Shown in pieces: positions 10,156 to 43,780 of a stretch of 47,144 nucleotides of DNA; the stretch's first letter is position 1; each line of letters starts with the position of its first letter. Both the position numbers and the translations under genes were made by a program. The notes under the pieces were generated by a model. That model saw only the letters and a program-made list of their open reading frames with translations. It was not told the DNA's origin and did no database searches. This DNA is from Anaerolineales bacterium. Its GTDB lineage: Bacteria > Chloroflexota > Anaerolineae > Anaerolineales > RBG-16-64-43. The DNA lies in contig JAFGCU010000060.1 in assembly GCA_016932475.1 (NCBI GenBank), forward strand, positions 1-47,144, written 5' to 3'.

Positions 10156-13086
10156 CTATTTGCTGCCGATCGGGATCACCGAAAGGATCCGCTGCTTGAC
10201 CGCGTCGTCGAGCGGGGCGTTATGGGAGAGCGAGATCAGCCCCCAGGCAACCGACTTGCGCACGTCGTTGTCTTCATCATCGAGCGCCGCGATCAGCGGC
10301 TCGATCGCGCGCGCGTCGCCGATCTTGCCCAACACCTCGGTCGCCGCCTTGCGCATCCGCCATTCACGGTACTGCAACGCGGAGATGAGCGGCTCGACGG
10401 AGGGCGCGCCGATCTTGATCAGGCTTTCCGCCGCGGCCTCGCGAACCTTGAAGTATTCGTCCTTCAGAATCGGGATCAGCGGTTCGACCGCGCGCGGGTC
10501 GCCGATCCGGCCGAGCGCCTCGGCGGCCGCCTTGCGGATCATATACCAGCCGCCGTTCTTTAATGCGGCAATCAGCGGTTCGACCGCGCGCGGGTCGCCG
10601 ATCCGGCCGAGCGCCTCGGCCGCCGCCATGCACACGCCGTAATACTCGTCCGAAAGCGCGGCGATCAGGGGCTTCACCGCCGGCTGGCCGATCTGTCCGA
10701 GCGCGTCCACCGCCGCCTTGCACACATCCTCGGTCTCGTAGCGGAGGGCGGTGATAAGCGGCCCGACCGCCGGTTCGCCGATCCGTCCCAGCGCCCGGAC
10801 CGCCTGCTGGCGCTCCTGCCATTCGTCGCTGCCCACGGATTCCTGGTCCTTGAGCGCGGTGATGAGCGGCTCGACCGCCGGTGCGCCGATCTCCATGCAC
10901 TCATCCCACTGCCGCTTGACGATCCAATAATAGGCGCCGGCTTCATCCTTCTCGGGCTTCCAATCCAGCTTGGTCAGAATGGCGATCGCGGCCATGCGCA
11001 CGCTTTTGTTTTCAAACTTGAGCGTTTTGACCAGCGGGTCGATGGCCGGGGCCCCGATCCGGACGAGGGCGACCGTCGCGGCTTCGCGGACCGAATCCGA
11101 TTCGTTTTTCAGCGCACCGATCAGGGGTTCGACGGCGTGCGGGTCGCCGATCTTCCCGAGGACCTCCACCGGCGAGAGGAGCACGTCGCCGTTTTCCTGT
11201 TTGAGGACGTCGATCAGCGGCGCGACCGCAGCGGCGCCGAGTTTGACCAGGGCCTCGGCGGCCGATTCATGGACGTCGACTTCGCGGTCTTTGAGGGCGT
11301 CGATCAGGGGATCGACCGCGCGGGCGTCGCCGATCCGGCCGAGCGCTTCGGCGGCTGCCTCGCGCACGTTGCGCGAGATATATTTCATCGCGGCGATCAG
11401 AGAATCGACCGCGCGGGCATCACCGATCCGCCCGAGCGCCTTCGCGGCCGCCTCGCGGATGAAGACGTACTTTTCGACCAGCTCGTCGATGATCTCCTTC
11501 TCGGAACGGGTATCGGTGAGCTTCTGGCGGGCGAGAGCGGCTTCGAACAGCTCGTAATAATCCCACTCGAGGGCGCCGATCAGCGGCTCCACGGCGCGCG
11601 GATCCCCGATCCGTCCCAGCGCCTCCGCGGCGAACTTTCGCAAATCCTCCTGCTCGTCTTTGAGCACCGCGATCAGGGGCTCGACCGCCTGGATGTGTCC
11701 GATCCGGCCGAGCGCTTCGGCGGCCACCTCGCGCACGTGACCGGCCTCGTCGTTCAGCGCGGCGATCAGCGGCGCCAGGACGCGTTCGTCCCCGAGGCGG
11801 CCAAGGGTTTCGGCCGCGGCATCGCGCACGGTCCAATCCGGATCGCGCATGGATGTGAGCAGCGGATCGATGGCGCGGGTGTCGCGCAGCCAGCCCAGGC
11901 ATTCGGCCGCCGCGGCGCGCACCGGCGCATGCTCGTCCGCGAGGGTGGCCACCAGGGGCTCGAACGCGCGCATGTCGCCGATCTTGCCGAGGCACACCAC
12001 GCACGCCTTGCGCACATCCGGATCGCGGTCCGACAGCATCGCCACCAGCGGATCCACGGCGGCCGCTTTAATGGCGGTGCAGCGATCCCAATTCCGTTTG
12101 GCGATCCAATATCCCGTGCCGGCGGCGTCGTTCGAAGGCTGCCAGCCGAGTTTGTCGAGCGCATCGGAGGCGGCGCGGCGCGCGTCTTTATCCGGATCGC
12201 GCAGCGCGGCGATCAACGGTTCGATCGCCATTCCATGGAAGCGGCCGATCGCGTCCACCGCGGCGGCCCGCACGCCGTAATTCTCGTCGCGCAGGGCGTT
12301 GATGAGCGCCGGCACGGCGCGCGGATCGACGATGTTGCCGAGCGCATGGGCCGCGTGCGCGGCTACCGCCCGATCCTTGAGCGCGGCGATCAAGCTCTCG
12401 ACCGCCGGGGAACCCAGCTTGCCGAGCGCGGCCGCGGCCGCCTGGCGGACGTCTTTATCCGCATCGTTCAACATGGCGCACAGCGGTTCCACCGCCTGCG
12501 GATCGCCGATCCCGCCCAGGGCGCGGACGGCGGCCAGACGGACATCGGTGACCGGGTCCTGCAGAAGCGCCAGCAGTTGAGCGGCGCCTTCGGGTCCCAT
12601 GCCGCTTAACGCCTCGGTCGCCGCGTTCCCGATGAATCCCCATCCGGATTCCCGGATCGAGGCGATCAGATGCGGGATGGCCTGTGGATCGCCGATTTTT
12701 CCGAGCGCCGCGGCCGCGGCGCGGCAATCCGCCTGTTCCCGTTCCGCCAGAACCCGGATCAGCGGCGACACGGCGGAAGCGCCGATCTCCGCGCAGGCGG
12801 CGATATTTTTTTTGGAAATCCAGTAATAGGCGCTGGCCTCATCCTTGTGGGGAACCCAATGCAGCGCTTCCAGGGCTTCGGCCGCGGCATGACGGACGTC
12901 CTTATCTTCATCTTTAAGCGCGATGGTGAGGGGTTCAATCGCCCGGATATCGTTAAGCTTGCCCAGCGCTTCGGCGGCGGCCTTGCGCACGAACCAGGCT
13001 TCGCGATAGCCGAGGGCTTTGGTCAGCCCCCGGACGTTGCGGGCGGCCAGCAACCGTTCGATGTTGGGAGGTCCAAATAGCGGCAT
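10156..13086 (-). CDS. Large HEAT-repeat (PBS-lyase-like) protein
   Basis: 976 aa made almost wholly of 30-31-residue HEAT repeats (consensus AVEPLIAALKDEDxxVRxAAAEALGRIGDPR), roughly 28 units, with no signal peptide or membrane helix. Such solenoids are scaffolds for protein interaction; no enzyme domain is visible. Three repeats carry a special module with Trp, DEA-x-AYYWI, a basic pair, W/N-x-x-C and EIGA, at about residues 77-102, 315-342 and 709-736. Another insertion sits at about 508-546. The PBS-lyase link is by fold only; no phycobiliprotein genes are near. GAGGAGAGGG precedes the ATG, and the gene is monocistronic with its own terminator. Function unknown. Confidence 0.9.
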   Translation of the reverse strand: MPLFGPPNIERLLAARNVRGLTKALGYREAWFVRKAAAEALGKLNDIRAIEPLTIALKDEDKDVRHAAAEALEALHWVPHKDEASAYYWISKKNIAACAEIGASAVSPLIRVLAEREQADCRAAAAALGKIGDPQAIPHLIASIRESGWGFIGNAATEALSGMGPEGAAQLLALLQDPVTDVRLAAVRALGGIGDPQAVEPLCAMLNDADKDVRQAAAAALGKLGSPAVESLIAALKDRAVAAHAAHALGNIVDPRAVPALINALRDENYGVRAAAVDAIGRFHGMAIEPLIAALRDPDKDARRAASDALDKLGWQPSNDAAGTGYWIAKRNWDRCTAIKAAAVDPLVAMLSDRDPDVRKACVVCLGKIGDMRAFEPLVATLADEHAPVRAAAAECLGWLRDTRAIDPLLTSMRDPDWTVRDAAAETLGRLGDERVLAPLIAALNDEAGHVREVAAEALGRIGHIQAVEPLIAVLKDEQEDLRKFAAEALGRIGDPRAVEPLIGALEWDYYELFEAALARQKLTDTRSEKEIIDELVEKYVFIREAAAKALGRIGDARAVDSLIAAMKYISRNVREAAAEALGRIGDARAVDPLIDALKDREVDVHESAAEALVKLGAAAVAPLIDVLKQENGDVLLSPVEVLGKIGDPHAVEPLIGALKNESDSVREAATVALVRIGAPAIDPLVKTLKFENKSVRMAAIAILTKLDWKPEKDEAGAYYWIVKRQWDECMEIGAPAVEPLITALKDQESVGSDEWQERQQAVRALGRIGEPAVGPLITALRYETEDVCKAAVDALGQIGQPAVKPLIAALSDEYYGVCMAAAEALGRIGDPRAVEPLIAALKNGGWYMIRKAAAEALGRIGDPRAVEPLIPILKDEYFKVREAAAESLIKIGAPSVEPLISALQYREWRMRKAATEVLGKIGDARAIEPLIAALDDEDNDVRKSVAWGLISLSHNAPLDDAVKQRILSVIPIGSK

Positions 13087-37592: not shown

Positions 37593-38975
37593 CTACTCGT
37601 GGATTTCGATATTCGATTCGTCGATCCCTTTGCGGCGCGCGTGCACGCCCCGCGTGCCGCGGTATTTCCCCGGCGACATGCCGGTCGAACGTTTGAACAC
37701 GCGCGTGAAATAGCTCTGGTCTTTAAACCCGGTCCTCGCGCCGATCTCGGCCAGCGGGATGCTCTGCGCCTGGAGCAGGGCCTTGGCCTTCTCGATCCGG
37801 ATCCGGGTCAGGTAGGAGACGAAACTCTCCCCCGTCCCCTCGTGGAAAATCCGCGAGAAGTGCGACGGGCTGAGATGAATGAATTCGGCGACCTTCTCGA
37901 GCGAAAGCGACCCGGTGTATTGCGAGCGGATAAAGTGGATGCTCTTGCGGATCAGATCGGCGTGTTTGATCGATTTGAGCGTGAAGACGCAATCCACGAA
38001 GCGCGAGAGGATGACCGACAGCGAAGCCGAGAGGTCGTAGACCGAACGGGATTCGCGGATGCGAACCAGGTAATCGTTGTTGAGCCCGATGATCTCCTCG
38101 ATCGAAGCCCCGCCGTCGATCGCCGCGCGCGAGAGCAGGACGACCAGCTCGACTACCCGCAGTTTGATCGATTCCAGGTTGTTGTTGCTGTAAAAGAAGA
38201 TCAGGCCGAGGATCTCATTCAGGATCTTACGCGAGCCTTCGAGATCGCCTTTAGAGATGCACCCGAGGAGTTCGCGTTCCTTCGCGAGCGGATAACCGGC
38301 GGCGGGAGAAAAAAACCCGGCGGTTTCGCCCGACATCAGCAGATCCGCGGCGGCGGAATCCGGCGCGCCGGGGGGCACGGCGATCCCGCCCATTTGCCGG
38401 CCGAGATTCTGGGAAAAAGCCTGCGTGTTCAACCGCAGGATTTCCGCCAGCGAACGCACCCGGGCGGGGTCGACGTACGGAATCTCGCGGCAGGCTTCGC
38501 GCAGTTCCTCAAGACAGTCCGCGCTCAACCGGTGCGAACCGATGATATCCTCCTGAAGGAATTCCTCGGGATCCATCATCAGCACCGGGCCGCCGATCAG
38601 CGACCCGAGCGTGATCCCGTCGATCCGGACCGGCGCCGCCCAGTGGGTCATATTGCGCGGGCAGAAATAGATGTACATTCCCCCGAACCGTTCCGCCTGA
38701 TACGTCCCATAGCGGTGCACACCGGCGCAATCCACGCGCGGGAAGGAACGCAACCCGTTGAGCGCGGTGCAAAGCCGGCAGCGTTGCGGGGCCGGGTGTT
38801 TCGCATCCGAGGCGGATTCTTCGGGCGCCATCCAGCGGCCGTCCGGGGTGATGGCAATGCAATTGATCCCGGTCGCACCGCGGTAGTGCCGGGTCAGTTC
38901 GAGGATGGCGCTCTGAATGTCGACCGGAGCGGCCGGTCTGGAAAGCGCCGGAGAGCGTTTAAATTGATCTTCCAT
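37593..38975 (-). CDS. PocR-domain AraC family transcriptional regulator
   Basis: 460 aa. An N-terminal PocR sensory domain (about residues 15-185) has the family's conserved Cys (RCRLC, VDCAG, YFCPR) and GGPVLM. A helical middle region follows, then two AraC-type helix-turn-helix motifs at the C-terminus (SLSLEKVAEFIHLSPSHFSR and PLAEIGARTGFKDQSYFTRVF). PocR domains bind small diols or related ligands, and such regulators often sit by corrinoid and methyltransferase genes. It is divergent from mtaB, 231 bp apart, so it most likely activates the methanol operon. ATG 38975 is preferred; the frame to 39050 adds an unlikely N-terminus. Confidence 0.92.
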   Translation of the reverse strand: MEDQFKRSPALSRPAAPVDIQSAILELTRHYRGATGINCIAITPDGRWMAPEESASDAKHPAPQRCRLCTALNGLRSFPRVDCAGVHRYGTYQAERFGGMYIYFCPRNMTHWAAPVRIDGITLGSLIGGPVLMMDPEEFLQEDIIGSHRLSADCLEELREACREIPYVDPARVRSLAEILRLNTQAFSQNLGRQMGGIAVPPGAPDSAAADLLMSGETAGFFSPAAGYPLAKERELLGCISKGDLEGSRKILNEILGLIFFYSNNNLESIKLRVVELVVLLSRAAIDGGASIEEIIGLNNDYLVRIRESRSVYDLSASLSVILSRFVDCVFTLKSIKHADLIRKSIHFIRSQYTGSLSLEKVAEFIHLSPSHFSRIFHEGTGESFVSYLTRIRIEKAKALLQAQSIPLAEIGARTGFKDQSYFTRVFKRSTGMSPGKYRGTRGVHARRKGIDESNIEIHE

Positions 38976-39206
38976 AAGTCCAGCCGGCGTGATTCTACAG
39001 GGAAAAGCCGCATTCTCAAAGGGAATGGTTTTAACGATAAAACTCTGCAACTTTTCGATATTTTTTTCATATCCCGCGACCCGGTAAGGTGCAACAATGG
39101 GATTGCCGGTCCGTTATCCGTAGAAAGCCAAAACGAAGTAATGCCAATTACAGCCCGATACGATCGGCATTCTAATCGGTCAGGAGGAGATTCCAAGGAA
39201 CAGCCC
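38976..39206. promoter_or_regulatory. Divergent control region of the methanol operon
   Basis: 231 bp between the regulator and mtaB. A direct repeat TGCAAC occurs at 39046-39051 and 39090-39095, about four helical turns apart, a possible AraC half-site pair. CCGAT...ATCGG (39152-39178) is an imperfect dyad near mtaB. No consensus promoter is visible, which would fit activator dependence. AAGGAA near 39196 is the probable mtaB ribosome binding site. Confidence 0.45.
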
Positions 39207-40583
39207 ATGCATTTCCCCGATTTGGCGCTCAACGATCCCCGCCTGCTGATCTTCGGCAGCGCGCCCCATCCGGTGACATCGCGGCGCGGGCTCGTGATCG
39301 GCGGCGGAACAGTCTACCCGGAACTTAATTTCACGCTCCCGACGATGACGATCTGCGAGGAAACGCTGCCCGGGATCCGCCGGCGGTACGCCGAAATCGT
39401 CACCGAAGCCCTGCAACGCGCGCACCAGTTGCACAGCAACGGCCTCGTCTTCGAATTCGAAACGCTCCTCGAGATGACCCAGAATCCCAAGATCGGCGTG
39501 ATGCTGACCCGCGTGATGGCCGAGATCTGCGAGGAGTGGTACGTCAAACACGGGCTGAAATCCGAGATCCGGTTGACCCCCAACGACACGCGCGATTTCG
39601 ACCGGCCGCCCCGATTGCGCACCAGCGCCCGCACCGCGGCGATGCTCGAACTGTTCGAACAGGGCGCGCTGGCGGGCGGCGATTTCCTCTCGATCGAAAG
39701 CACCGGCGGAAAAGAGATCCATGACGATGCGCTGATGACCGGCGACATCCGCCTGGCGTTTTTCGCGCTGGTTGTCCTGGGAGTCCGGGATATGCAATAC
39801 CTGTGGAAGCGGATTGTGGATATCGCCCGGCGCACGGGCCGGACCGCGGGCGGGGATACCGCCTGCGGGTTCGCCAACACCGCGATGGTGCTCGCGGAGA
39901 AGGGATACATCCCGCGGGTGTTCGCCGCGGTCGACCGGGTGATCTCGGTCGTGCGCACGCTCGTGGCGCACGAGGAGGGGGCGCTCGGCCCGGACAAGGA
40001 TTGCGGATACGAGGGACCCTACCTCAAGGCGATCGCGGGCATTCCCATCTCGATGGAAGGCAAGACCGCCGCCTGCGCCCACGGCAGCCCGGTCGGGAAC
40101 ATCGCCTCAGCCGCCTGCGACCTGTGGAGCAACGAATCGATCCAGCATGTCAAGCTTCTCGGCGGGATGGCCACCACCATCTCCCTCGAACAGCTCGAGT
40201 ACGATGTCCGCCTGATGAACGCCGCCACCCGCCGGGGCCCCGAATACCGGAGGATGTTCCAAATGCTGACGGTGGATTCCGACGCGGCGCTCGACCCGCA
40301 GGCGGTCGTCCTCGCTCCCGAGGTCGTAATCGACATCGCCGGCAGGATTGTCGCGGGCAGGAATCCGATCGACTCGGCCAAGCGCGGCGCGCTGCGGGCG
40401 GTCGATATCCTCGAAGAGCGATCCCGCTCCGGAGCGCTTCCGCTTCCCGAACGGGAAGCCGTCTACTTCGAGCGGATGCGCGAAGACCTCACCGCCATCC
40501 CGGAGGATGAATCCGAATTTGTGGAGATGATGCTTCCCCAGCTCGATCCGGAAAAGGTGATCCTCGGGGAATATGGACTGTAA
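39207..40583 (+). CDS. mtaB: Methanol:corrinoid methyltransferase (MtaB)
   Basis: 458-aa zinc enzyme that moves the methyl group of methanol to the corrinoid protein MtaC. Conserved blocks are LSIESTGGKE, GGDTACGFANTAM, GPDKDCGYEGPYLKAIAG, MEGKTAACAHGSPVGN and CDLWSNES. Glu164 and Cys220 fall at the same numbers as the zinc ligands of Methanosarcina barkeri MtaB, and Cys266 fits its Cys269. The length is normal. ATG 39207 is chosen for ribosome binding site and family fit, though the frame remains open far upstream. First gene of mtaB-mtaC-DUF1638-RACo, facing a PocR/AraC regulator. Confidence 0.93.
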   Translation: MHFPDLALNDPRLLIFGSAPHPVTSRRGLVIGGGTVYPELNFTLPTMTICEETLPGIRRRYAEIVTEALQRAHQLHSNGLVFEFETLLEMTQNPKIGVMLTRVMAEICEEWYVKHGLKSEIRLTPNDTRDFDRPPRLRTSARTAAMLELFEQGALAGGDFLSIESTGGKEIHDDALMTGDIRLAFFALVVLGVRDMQYLWKRIVDIARRTGRTAGGDTACGFANTAMVLAEKGYIPRVFAAVDRVISVVRTLVAHEEGALGPDKDCGYEGPYLKAIAGIPISMEGKTAACAHGSPVGNIASAACDLWSNESIQHVKLLGGMATTISLEQLEYDVRLMNAATRRGPEYRRMFQMLTVDSDAALDPQAVVLAPEVVIDIAGRIVAGRNPIDSAKRGALRAVDILEERSRSGALPLPEREAVYFERMREDLTAIPEDESEFVEMMLPQLDPEKVILGEYGL

Positions 40584-40681
40584 GCCCCGCTTTGGATGCG
40601 GATTTTGCACAAACCGGTCCAAGCGCGTAAGAAAATGCAAGACGATGGGCGACAGGTTGGGTATAACCAATAATTAAAGAC

Positions 40682-40766
40682 GATTCACCGCAGAGACGCA
40701 GAGCGCGCAGAGGTTGTAATATTTGTTTTTCTCTGCGTTCTCCGCGCCTCGGCGGTGAGAAAGGTT
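40682..40766. repeat. Imperfect inverted repeat between mtaB and mtaC
   Basis: The left arm TTCACCGCAGAGACGCAGAG... (from 40682) and the right arm ending ...CCTCGGCGGTGAG (40760) match at about 23 of 29 paired positions. The type ACCGCAGAGACGCAGAG is a variant of the other CACAGAG/CACGAAG repeats in this window. It may form a hairpin in the mRNA between the two cistrons. Confidence 0.6.
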
Positions 40767-40787
40767 TTTTTCTTAGGAGGCGCAACG

Positions 40788-41462
40788 ATGCCGATACTGG
40801 ACGATATATCCACAGCCCTGCAAAAGGGACAGGCCAAGGAAGTCAAAGACCTCGTGCAGCAGGCGATCGACCAGAAGATACCGGTCGAGCAGATCCTCAA
40901 TCAGGGTTTGATGGCCGGGATGAACATCATCGGCGGCAAGTTCAAACGCAACGAGGTTTTCGTGCCGGAAGTCCTGATCGCGGCGCGGGCGATGAACGCC
41001 GGCACGGCGATCCTTAAGCCGCTGTTCGCCTCGGCCGGCGTGAAGGCCAGGGGCAAGGCGGTCATCGGGACCGTCAAGGGCGACCTGCACGACATCGGCA
41101 AGAACCTGGTCCGGATGATGATCGAAGGCAAGGGGATCGAGATCCTCGACCTGGGCGTGGATGTGCCCGCCGACCGGTTTGTCCAGGCGGCGCTCGAGGA
41201 GAACGCGGACCTGGTGTGCGTATCCGCGCTCCTGACCACAACGATGAACCAGATGAAGACGGTGGTCGACAGCTTCGCCCAGGCCGGCGTACGCGAACGG
41301 TTCAAGATCATGGTCGGCGGCGCGCCGATCACCGAGGAATTCCGGGTCCGGATCGGAGCCGACGGCTACGCGCCGGATGCCGCCAGCGCCGCCGACGCGG
41401 CGCTCAAGCTTCTTTCGCGCTCGAATGGAAAGGCGCAGCCATGCCCCGGCGCTTCCGGATGA
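40788..41462 (+). CDS. mtaC: Methanol corrinoid protein (MtaC)
   Basis: 224-aa cobalamin-binding carrier that accepts the methyl group from MtaB. A helical cap domain (residues 1-85, with VPEVLIAARAMNAG) is followed by a Rossmann-like B12 domain with the DxHxxG cobalt-ligand motif (Asp99-Leu-His101-Asp-Ile-Gly104). VCVSALLTTTMNQMK and VGGAPIT match the family. AGGAGG lies 7 nt before ATG 40788. The gene overlaps the DUF1638 gene by 22 nt. Confidence 0.95.
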   Translation: MPILDDISTALQKGQAKEVKDLVQQAIDQKIPVEQILNQGLMAGMNIIGGKFKRNEVFVPEVLIAARAMNAGTAILKPLFASAGVKARGKAVIGTVKGDLHDIGKNLVRMMIEGKGIEILDLGVDVPADRFVQAALEENADLVCVSALLTTTMNQMKTVVDSFAQAGVRERFKIMVGGAPITEEFRVRIGADGYAPDAASAADAALKLLSRSNGKAQPCPGASG

Positions 41463-42178
41463 TCGCGTGCGAGGTTTCCCAGCGGGAGGTGTGCGCGGCC
41501 GTCGAGCGCAGCCGCAGCGTCCTCGATGTCGATTTTCTCCCCAAGGGGCTGCACGACATCGGCGCGGAGCGGATGCTCGCGCGGGTGCAGGCAGCGCTCG
41601 ATGCGAAGCCGTGCGGGGAATACGAGGCGATCCTCCTGTGGTATGGGCTGTGCAATAACGGGCTGTGCGGTGTGCGCGCCCGGGTCCCGATTGTCGCGCC
41701 GCGCGCACACGATTGCATCACGCTTCTGCTCGGGTCGCGCCGGCGCTTCGCCCGATATTTCGAAGCCAACCCGGGCACCTACTACAAATCCCCGGGCTGG
41801 ATCGAGCGCGACACCGATCCGAACGACAATCCCGCCAGCATCACCGCCCGCATGAGGCTGAGCCACGAGTATCGCGAACTGGCCGAGCGTTACGGCGAGG
41901 AAGACGCCGGGTATCTCGCGCCCTTCATCGCCGACTGGTTCAAGCATTATAAAAAACTCGCCTTCATCAACACCGGGGTGGGGAACGTCGAGGAGTACCG
42001 GGCCCGGGCCGGCGCACTCGCGGCGGAACGGAAGTGGGAGTTCGAGGAGTTGCAGGGCGATCCCGGATTGCTCGACCGAATGCTGGCCGGAGAATGGAAT
42101 ACCGAAGATTTCCTGATCGTGCCGCCCGGCCAAACGATTCGGCCGTCTTTCGGAGAGGATATCATCGAATGCGGATGA
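41441..42178 (+). CDS. DUF1638 domain protein
   Basis: 245-aa cytosolic protein of the DUF1638 family: IACEVSQREV, AILLWYGLCNNGLCG, PIVAPRAHDCITLLLGS, PGTYYKSPGW and NVEEYRARA are recognisable. Genes of this family often accompany corrinoid-dependent methyltransferases, but the biochemical role is not established. The conserved Cys (Cys10, the C-N-N-G-L-C pair, Cys in HDC) could bind metal or corrinoid, which is inference. It starts inside the end of mtaC with GGAAAGG upstream, so translation is coupled and made in step with the corrinoid protein. Confidence 0.88.
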   Translation: MPRRFRMIACEVSQREVCAAVERSRSVLDVDFLPKGLHDIGAERMLARVQAALDAKPCGEYEAILLWYGLCNNGLCGVRARVPIVAPRAHDCITLLLGSRRRFARYFEANPGTYYKSPGWIERDTDPNDNPASITARMRLSHEYRELAERYGEEDAGYLAPFIADWFKHYKKLAFINTGVGNVEEYRARAGALAAERKWEFEELQGDPGLLDRMLAGEWNTEDFLIVPPGQTIRPSFGEDIIECG

Positions 42179-42223
42179 ATAAAGCCGATTGAGCAGGCCG
42201 GCCGACTCCTTCATGGTGATCCA

Positions 42224-43780
42224 ATGCCGCGCGAAGTAAACGGACAAACTGGACAGACACTGCTCGACGCAATGCGCGCGGTCTTCCCGGACGCCGAGGC
42301 ACCGTGCGGCGGCGCAGGCCGCTGCGGCCGCTGCCGGGTGCAGGTGCAGGGCGGAGCCGTGCCGCCGGATTCCCCGCCGTCGATCCTCTCCCCGGTCGGC
42401 GAAGAAGAAGCGCGCCTGCTCGGCGCCGACCGCGTGAACGCCGGCTGGCGCCTGTCCTGCCTGGCCCGTTTCGAACGGAACGGCAGCGTGCATGTGGACC
42501 GGCCCGAGCGCGCGTTTTTCCTGCCCCAGGCAAATCAAACCGCTCAACCGGAATTGGATTCCCGCGACGGCTTGTGCGCCGCGGTCGATATCGGGACCAC
42601 GACGATCAGTTGCGCCTTTGCGGATGCCGTCACCGGCCGGATCGTCGCGCGCACCGCCGCCGCCAACCGCCAGCGCAGTTACGGCCCGGATGTCATCTCG
42701 CGGATCGAGAACGGGGTCCGAGATCCGGAAACGCTCGCGGCCATGCGCAACCTCGTCCGCGGACAGGTGGCCGGAATGCTCGAGGGATTGCGGGCAGGCT
42801 TGGGCGGCGCGCGGCCGGCGCAGGTGCACATCTGCGGCAACACGACGATGATGCATTTGTGGGAAGGGGCAAGTCTGGAAGGGTTGGCGCGCATGCCTTT
42901 CCGGCCCGCGTTCCTGGGAAGCCGGGAGACGGAGCTGGCGGCCGATGGCGGGGAGAACTATCGCTGCCGGCTGCTGCCCGGAATATCCGCGTTTGTCGGC
43001 GCCGACATCACCGCCGGGATCCTCGCCCGCCATTTGCTAGCGGACACCGGCAAGCCCGAACTACTCGTCGATATCGGAACGAACGGGGAGATCGTGCTCG
43101 CGGCGGATCGCGGGCTGACGGCGACGGCGACTGCGGCCGGGCCCGCCTTCGAGGGCGCCGCGATCTCCTGCGGAATCCCGGCCGTCAACGGCGCGGTCGA
43201 CGGCGTGACGTGGAAAGAGGGTAAGTTCGCCTTCACCACGCTTGGTAATTTTCCGCCGGCGGGTTTTTGCGGCTCGGGGCTGCTCGATCTGCTCGCCTGT
43301 TTGCGGCAAGCCGGGATCCTGGATGAAAACGGCGGATTGACGATTGAGCCCGAGGCCGATGGTATCCGCGCGTTCCAGCTCCCGCTCGATCCGCCGCTGA
43401 AGTTCACACAATCGGATGTGCGCCAGCTGCAGCTGGCGAAGGGCGCGATCGCCGCGGGAATCCGGATCCTGTGCCGGCGGGCGGGCGTGGCGCTGGCGGA
43501 TATCGGACGCGTTCACCTGGCGGGCAGCTTCGGCAGCAGCATGTCTTCCGAATCGGCAATCACGGTCGGGCTGATCCCGCCCGAACTTGCGGGGCGGATC
43601 GAGGTGGCGGGGAACAGCGCGCTCGCGGGGGCTCTTCTGACCGCCTGCGATCCGGACGCGCTCGAACAATGCGCGCGAATCGCAGACGGGACCCGGGTGA
43701 TCGACCTCTCCCGCGAGGAGGGGTTTCAGGACGCATTTGTCGAGGCTATGCTCTTCCCGCCTCTTTCCTCCAGCGGATGA
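42224..43780 (+). CDS. RACo-type reductive activator of corrinoid protein
   Basis: 518 aa. An N-terminal [2Fe-2S] ferredoxin domain has Cys28, Cys34, Cys37 and Cys79 (CGGAGRCGRC then RLSC). A linker is followed by an ASKHA-type ATPase domain (from about residue 118) with AVDIGTTTISCAF, HICGNTTMMHL, LLVDIGTNGEI and VHLAGSFGSSMS. Such proteins use ATP to reduce inactive Co(II) corrinoid back to Co(I). It is RACo-like rather than RamA-like, since the iron-sulfur domain is N-terminal and [2Fe-2S]. The N-terminus is a little short of the usual first strand, and the ribosome binding site before ATG 42224 is weak. Last gene of the methanol operon. Confidence 0.92.
   Translation: MPREVNGQTGQTLLDAMRAVFPDAEAPCGGAGRCGRCRVQVQGGAVPPDSPPSILSPVGEEEARLLGADRVNAGWRLSCLARFERNGSVHVDRPERAFFLPQANQTAQPELDSRDGLCAAVDIGTTTISCAFADAVTGRIVARTAAANRQRSYGPDVISRIENGVRDPETLAAMRNLVRGQVAGMLEGLRAGLGGARPAQVHICGNTTMMHLWEGASLEGLARMPFRPAFLGSRETELAADGGENYRCRLLPGISAFVGADITAGILARHLLADTGKPELLVDIGTNGEIVLAADRGLTATATAAGPAFEGAAISCGIPAVNGAVDGVTWKEGKFAFTTLGNFPPAGFCGSGLLDLLACLRQAGILDENGGLTIEPEADGIRAFQLPLDPPLKFTQSDVRQLQLAKGAIAAGIRILCRRAGVALADIGRVHLAGSFGSSMSSESAITVGLIPPELAGRIEVAGNSALAGALLTACDPDALEQCARIADGTRVIDLSREEGFQDAFVEAMLFPPLSSSG

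Follow-up and report, generated by a model that had tools for sequence, protein, structure and literature searches.

A contig of 47,144 bases from an Anaerolineales bacterium (the whole of contig C82 of assembly GCA_016932475.1), here called the window, carries at positions 37593-43780 four genes on the forward strand, for a putative methanol:corrinoid methyltransferase (MtaB), a corrinoid protein (MtaC), a DUF1638 protein, and a RACo-type activator, opposite a gene for a PocR/AraC regulator. The best explanation for this set, with a probability near 0.6, is a methanol-type corrinoid methyltransferase module, gained by horizontal transfer, that feeds tetrahydrofolate (THF) or methionine one-carbon (C1) metabolism, not acetogenesis. 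The host genome, assembled as 3.65 Mb in 129 contigs, is estimated to be 97.8% complete and 2.1% contaminated.

Such a module would work as follows. MtaB would hold zinc by Glu164, Cys220, and Cys266, and would polarise methanol or another small methyl donor. The methyl group would then be passed from MtaB to the Co(I) of MtaC. RACo, probably together with the DUF1638 protein, would re-reduce any corrinoid lost to the Co(II) state. A further, second methyltransferase would deliver the methyl group to THF or methionine C1 metabolism. The PocR/AraC protein would switch on the divergent operon in response to the small substrate.

The MtaB protein and its substrate

The window protein belongs to the Pfam MtaB family. 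It scores 506.9 bits against PF12176 over residues 3-447, where the cut-off is 25, and it matches the MtaB of Methanosarcina barkeri (2i2x_A) with an E value of 6.4e-74. A structure model built from 25 aligned sequences (predicted local distance difference test, pLDDT, 90.2; predicted template modelling score, pTM, 0.91) aligns with 2i2x_A over 447 residues, with Z 54.6 and a root-mean-square deviation of 2.2. The next structure reaches Z 15.9; the remaining fold matches, at Z 16 and below, were set aside as common barrels.

Here, the original prediction chose well in naming Glu164, Cys220, and Cys266 as likely zinc ligands. They align with residues 164, 220, and 269 of 2i2x_A, which we take to be the zinc ligands of that protein, and they are kept in 93, 91, and 91, respectively, of 94 aligned rows. 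Further, 84 positions shared by MtaB and 2i2x_A are conserved in 95% or more of the aligned rows. Both systems also have a partner corrinoid protein.

Several observations weigh against the methanol-type module as the explanation. The NCBIfam equivalog for methanol-specific MtaB (NF040651) gives the window protein 375.4 bits, against a cut-off of 720. By sequence, then, the system resembles the MtaBC methanol system and is a member of Pfam MtaB that fails the methanol-specific equivalog test. Around Cys220 the window protein has GDTACGF, where 2i2x_A has GDTDCAQ. If a lineage-specific position is one that agrees with the window MtaB in at least 95% of the 81 rows of its lineage (the window and 80 related loci), then 42 such positions differ from both 2i2x_A and the relative L021, three of them being gaps in 2i2x_A; they include 219, 221, and 222, which adjoin the ligand Cys220. 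Outside MtaB, a second methyltransferase was not identified in the host, so that the three-component pathway is incomplete as found; the genome is an assembly of 129 contigs, and the missing gene may be unbinned. Last, many loci from Spirochaetota have mtaB without a recognised corrinoid gene or partner nearby, which tells against a fixed operon.

An alternative is an enzyme that resembles MtaB but is tuned by the changed residues beside Cys220 to act mainly on a donor other than methanol, for instance a halomethane, a methoxylated compound, or an alcohol longer than methanol. A score so far under the methanol-specific cut-off fits this alternative. So do reports that the MtaB of M. acetivorans can also activate ethanol (PMC12450230) and that dichloromethane sensing in the mec cassette has been attributed, as a proposal, to a PocR domain (PMC9768040). 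Against the alternative stand the intact zinc site and the 84 conserved positions. Further, L021, which groups with 2i2x_A, itself misses the cut-off, with 663 bits of 720. The cut-off may therefore mark methanogen proteins rather than a substrate. (The relatives L038 and L041, at 396.8 and 417.4 bits, also fall below it.) A donor other than methanol is judged unlikely, although the motif changes beside Cys220 may alter the substrate specificity of MtaB.

The original prediction had methanol entering metabolism as a methyl-corrinoid. What is supported is a methanol-type pair of MtaB and MtaC, together with a corrinoid-activating protein and a divergent PocR/AraC regulator. The assignment of methanol itself, however, is an extrapolation, because the MtaB lineage stands apart from the MtaB of M. 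barkeri.

Some MtaB paralogues have lost both zinc cysteines in open frames. These come from three genomes of the host's class, all of one family (L030:2800-4194 in G238, L031:8519-9913 in G099, and L032 in G275). All three have Gly in place of Cys220 and either Ser or Ala in place of Cys266; in L031, Glu164 is changed to Gln as well. Genomes G238 and G275 additionally hold an MtaB copy with a complete zinc site. From their sequences, the cysteine-less paralogues are possibly a non-zinc or regulatory offshoot.

The corrinoid protein, its probable helpers, and possible methyl acceptors

MtaC keeps the DxHxxG signature that had been ascribed to it (Table 1). It differs from the corrinoid protein of the M. 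barkeri system in lying closer to 1y80 and to MtgC models than to 2i2x_B; the lineage of MtaB, its motif at Cys220, and the lack of a recognised MtaA in the host also separate the two systems. The best NCBIfam model for MtaC is MtgC_2, with 218.9 bits of the 370 needed. The methanogen models NF040655 and NF040669 give 123.7 and 122.4 bits, where the cut-offs are 420 and 450. The activator is of the RACo type, with RACo_C_ter, Raco_middle, and 2Fe-2S (Fer2) domains all over cut-off and a 2Fe-2S cysteine motif, CGGAGRCGRC, at residues 28-37.

For the DUF1638 protein, analogies come from other bacteria. In Phaeobacter, DUF1638 and RamA-like proteins share a mutant phenotype with the corrinoid methionine synthase (PMC5764234); in Ruegeria, a DUF1638 protein is up during N-osmolyte growth (PMC12478193). 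The MtgBCD system of Ruegeria pomeroyi and, in Phaeobacter, the split methionine synthase resemble the window in setting an MtgC-type corrinoid protein beside DUF1638 and a RamA/RACo-like activator. They differ in using MttB-family donors and a separate pterin methyltransferase (PMC12478193, PMC5764234); the host has MtaB, and neither of these was found in it.

The class of the host was sampled as 396 genomes chosen without regard to MtaB. There, DUF1638 is present in 11 of the 12 genomes with MtaB, compared with 176 of 384 others (Fisher one-sided p = 0.0015, uncorrected for relatedness). The host genome holds one DUF1638 protein and no match to the MttB family (PF06253). This, in turn, means that its sole DUF1638 protein very likely serves the MtaBC system, or MetH; an MtaC shared with MttB-type donors was rejected on the same ground. 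A single-sequence fold model of the DUF1638 protein (pLDDT 35.4) was not used, and matches to solved structures were at chance level. Since DUF1638 (187 of the 396 genomes) is far commoner than MtaB (12 of 396), other types of corrinoid-dependent methyl transfer are probably frequent in the class.

Judging from its genes, the host has the THF C1 pathway in part, with two methylenetetrahydrofolate reductases (MTHFR) and one formate-THF ligase as members of a methyl branch. Of the two results that would have told against the original prediction, the lack of any THF C1 pathway does not apply; as for the other, a phylogeny grouping this MtaB with homologues of other substrate use, the trees place the protein apart from the M. 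barkeri MtaB. Searches for MTHFR and formate-THF ligase covered 28 genomes. One genome of the same family as the host has MTHFR, with no match for MtaB or the ligase. Among 15 genomes that supplied named loci, 13 have MTHFR and two have the ligase; a ligase so rare in the lineage makes oxidation to formate by this enzyme unlikely as a rule. On contig C46 of the host, formate-THF ligase and MTHFR lie about 6 kb apart among open reading frames (ORFs) known by their first residues, and no C1 operon is claimed.

No separate pterin-type second methyltransferase (MtaA-, MtvA-, or AcsE-like) was found in the host. Its sole Pterin_bind match is MetH, and B12-binding_2 is found in MtaC and MetH only. 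The window was already said to lack a second methyltransferase, which is true of the window genes scanned, these being a part of its ORFs.

Two URO-D proteins are present in the host, both below the MtaA cut-offs. One, on contig C29, has 98.5 bits against the 244-bit cut-off of the methylcobalamin:coenzyme M methyltransferase model and is without the HxCG motif. The other, on contig C70, has 40.8 bits, with HLHG and GTGC present. The gene on C29 (L035:1751-10440) lies 38-95 bases, depending on the start chosen, downstream of an ORF like a hydrogenase maturation protease, at the end of a same-strand run that resembles, by first residues, a membrane-bound hydrogenase. As for MetH, near-identical C-terminal stretches that differ at a few residues stand at the ends of contigs C18 (L037, L002) and C90 (L128); they would reflect either strain variation or a metH gene that the assembly holds twice.

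Methionine might alternatively be the endpoint, with methyl-MtaC used as a methyl source by MetH or a URO-D protein; the operon would in that case add to the C1 supply instead of forming a dissimilatory pathway. Ruegeria offers a parallel, sharing a corrinoid protein between a methyl donor and methionine synthesis (PMC12478193). Among corrinoid enzymes of the pterin or homocysteine kind, the search of the host yielded MetH alone, and the detection of the ligase in just two of 15 genomes points the same way. MetH, however, has its own corrinoid domain, and we know of no case where a foreign corrinoid protein docks on it. Further, the host does have formate-THF ligase, and core-MetE, considered as a methyl acceptor, has no match there. 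Such an endpoint is therefore doubtful, and a module feeding THF or methionine C1 metabolism through a further methyltransferase is preferred.

The origin and setting of the locus

MtaB was found in 12 of the 396 class genomes; the host aside, none of these is marked as belonging to the same order or family. In a scan of named genomes, the best 80 of 541 relatives are 57-64% identical to the window MtaB and come mainly from Bacteroidota and Spirochaetota. Cultivable carriers of the lineage include Sunxiuqinia indica, Draconibacterium aestuarii, and Labilibacter sediminis. Being best matches, the 80 loci cannot measure the spread of the lineage, and the 541 stretches, from one limited scan, do not all belong to it.

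A quick tree was made of 94 rows, including 12 of 14 class stretches (all but L033 and L034, which contig ends truncate). In it, the window and the 80 loci share a starred branch (99) that excludes the other class MtaBs and 2i2x_A. A careful tree of 39 of these rows repeats this grouping (100/100), and uniting the window with 11 class rows in a single clade is rejected by an approximately unbiased (AU) test (p = 0.0016). The trees are without MtaB from acetogens (Moorella, Acetobacterium, Eubacterium, Sporomusa) and from Brockarchaeota. As MtaB is placed apart from its own class and with a lineage of Bacteroidota and Spirochaetota, horizontal acquisition is likely.

The smallest starred set holding the window in the careful tree (99/94) has three Spirochaetota and one row titled Betaproteobacteria. 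One clade of the window with eight Spirochaetota-group rows (one titled Betaproteobacteria) is not rejected by the AU test (p = 0.209), a result that does not establish such a clade. The top partners among ORFs of mtaB loci are all from Spirochaetota, at 54% for MtaC (L099), 44% for RACo (L050), and 38.7% for the PocR domain (L050). Locus L050 also shares the divergent layout of PocR-AraC regulator and mtaB, followed by RACo. The DUF1638 protein has only distant best matches, at 34-37% (30 class loci compared). Its origin left aside, these comparisons make it likely that most of the cassette was acquired by transfer.

Composition was rejected as a sign of recent transfer, since the tetranucleotide distance of the operon (0.175) falls inside the 0.115-0.21 range of equal slices from four host stretches. 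No MtaB relatives were found on the plasmids or viral contigs scanned. Search listings of open-licence literature on MtaB or methanol methyltransferase in Anaerolineae, Chloroflexota, Bacteroidetes, and spirochaetes gave no paper on this lineage, and likewise for Prolixibacter, Ignavibacter, and Tannerella. In floodplains, mtaB is reported from 1.6% of 1,233 metagenome-assembled genomes (PMC11264602).

A further notion, which we consider very improbable, is that the contig, or the part of it with the operon, was brought in from another organism by a binning or assembly error. The nearest MtaB relatives, among the best 80 of 541, do lie in other phyla, and the assembly has its 129 contigs and 2.1% estimated contamination. 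However, the rest of the window is close to four other stretches of the genome in tetranucleotide make-up (distance 0.067), the operon lies within the range of host slices, and genes for gyrA and aconitase are on the same contig.

The locus itself is as the original prediction drew it, a compact set of four genes divergent from the regulator, with the coordinates right and Pfam scores far above chance (Table 1). All five reading frames are open, and the named Pfam matches all exceed their curated cut-offs. The span is bounded on one side by the stop of the regulator gene and on the other by that of the RACo gene. Between mtaB and mtaC are 204 bases; the last 22 bases of mtaC are shared with the DUF1638 gene. 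For the regulator, an earlier start at a TTG (39050) is possible.

Table 1. Features of the mtaB locus (window coordinates)
Feature	Position	Strand	Evidence
PocR-domain AraC-family regulator	37593..38975	-	PF10114 68.5 bits; PF12833 (HTH_18) 84.9 bits
Regulator-mtaB intergenic region, likely both promoters	38976..39206	.	position; weak consensus promoter matches, short inverted repeats
mtaB-type methanol:corrinoid methyltransferase (putative), 458 aa	39207..40583	+	PF12176; zinc-site residues Glu164, Cys220, Cys266
mtaC, corrinoid protein	40788..41462	+	both B12-binding domains; DLHDIG at residue 99
DUF1638 protein, probable corrinoid-reactivation helper	41441..42178	+	PF07796 128.4 bits
RACo-type reductive activator of corrinoid protein, 518 aa	42224..43780	+	RACo_C_ter 216.5, Raco_middle 115.2, Fer2 34.5 bits

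The PocR part of the regulator matches regulators beside mtaB in two Spirochaete loci, L050 (38.7%) and L099 (29.3%). PocR domains are reported to bind small hydrocarbons (PMC9768040). A regulator of this type beside mtaB in three places fits the sensing of a small substrate, which the PocR/AraC protein would presumably carry out here. No cobalamin riboswitch was found in the window at gathering scores. In L050 (8001-16131, a Spirochaetes metagenome-assembled genome), the genes after mtaB are RACo, another PocR-type regulator, and ORFs whose first residues look like those of CobU, CobS, and CobQ; this order hints at joint control with cobalamin synthesis.

Neighbours lying up to 5 kb from mtaB were counted across the 80 named loci, with domain names taken from representatives and RACo recognised by likeness to that of the window. 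A corrinoid protein is near mtaB in 50 loci, an AraC-type regulator in 31, RACo in 27, a URO-D protein in 26, a COG0523 (cobW) GTPase in 24, and a MetH-type activation protein in 17. In the 40 loci with at least 4 kb on both sides, the corresponding counts are 27, 19, 18, 9, 18, and 9. The accessory places in the window are taken by DUF1638 and RACo. Besides mtaB, the runs around it in relatives gave a list of 62 ORFs, of which 52 were scanned, with matches to GntR (8 of 52), periplasmic-binding-like proteins (8), sugar transporters (3), UxuA (2), and rhamnose mutarotase (2); the plant-polysaccharide setting hinted at was too thin to be used.

Two observations stand apart. In the class genome G389 (L033:5855-8576), a truncated mtaB is immediately preceded by two ORFs whose first residues resemble the beta and alpha subunits of electron-transfer flavoprotein, and a link to electron transfer is possible there. 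At 10159-13086, the window encodes a 976-residue protein made nearly entirely of HEAT repeats.

Acetogenesis and the wider lineage

Methylotrophic acetogenesis, which the original prediction suggested, is not supported. The host genome has no match for acetyl-CoA synthase (CdhC/ACS, PF03598), and 57 of 58 MtaB-bearing genomes, host included, likewise have none; L043 and 34 of the 80 named loci lie outside this search, and the named-locus genomes come without completeness figures. Thus, an operon feeding acetogenesis through the Wood-Ljungdahl pathway, for which MtaB, MtaC, the RACo-type activator, MTHFR, and formate-THF ligase are all at hand, is implausible in a nearly complete genome where neither this synthase nor an AcsE/MtvA-like Pterin_bind protein besides MetH was found, and where B12-binding_2 is confined to MtaC and MetH.

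The mtaA1B1C1 system of Moorella thermoacetica (PMC13391211) is like the window in its adjacent MtaB- and MtaC-type genes and in a bacterial host with a THF branch. It is unlike the window in that our host has no match for MtaA or for ACS. Another parallel is found in Brockarchaeota, where MtaB and a corrinoid protein occur with a THF branch, no ACS, and no recognised second methyltransferase (PMC8065059). These are archaea, reported to form their own branches of the MtaB tree, and compared here by description rather than by sequence. They provide a precedent for an MtaB that has neither a recognised second methyltransferase nor ACS.

Tentatively, then, a widespread MtaB lineage in Bacteroidota, Spirochaetota, and relatives, mostly without ACS, may route methanol carbon to THF or methionine metabolism by way of an undescribed second methyltransferase (a URO-D protein or MetH), and the host may have acquired it too. 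The lineage raises the question of which enzyme empties the methylated corrinoid. This missing enzyme is the most valuable point, a gap like that in Brockarchaeota and perhaps present in much of the bacterial lineage. The compact operon of MtaB, corrinoid protein, DUF1638, and RACo lends itself to reconstitution, and to finding out what DUF1638 does.

Anoxic settings commonly offer pectin-derived methanol as a substrate, and those usually counted as using it anaerobically are methanogens, acetogens, and certain sulfate reducers. Heterotrophs that lack acetyl-CoA synthase but possess a methanol-type MtaB would be further competitors for it. If this is true, the anaerobic use of methanol would extend well beyond those three groups.

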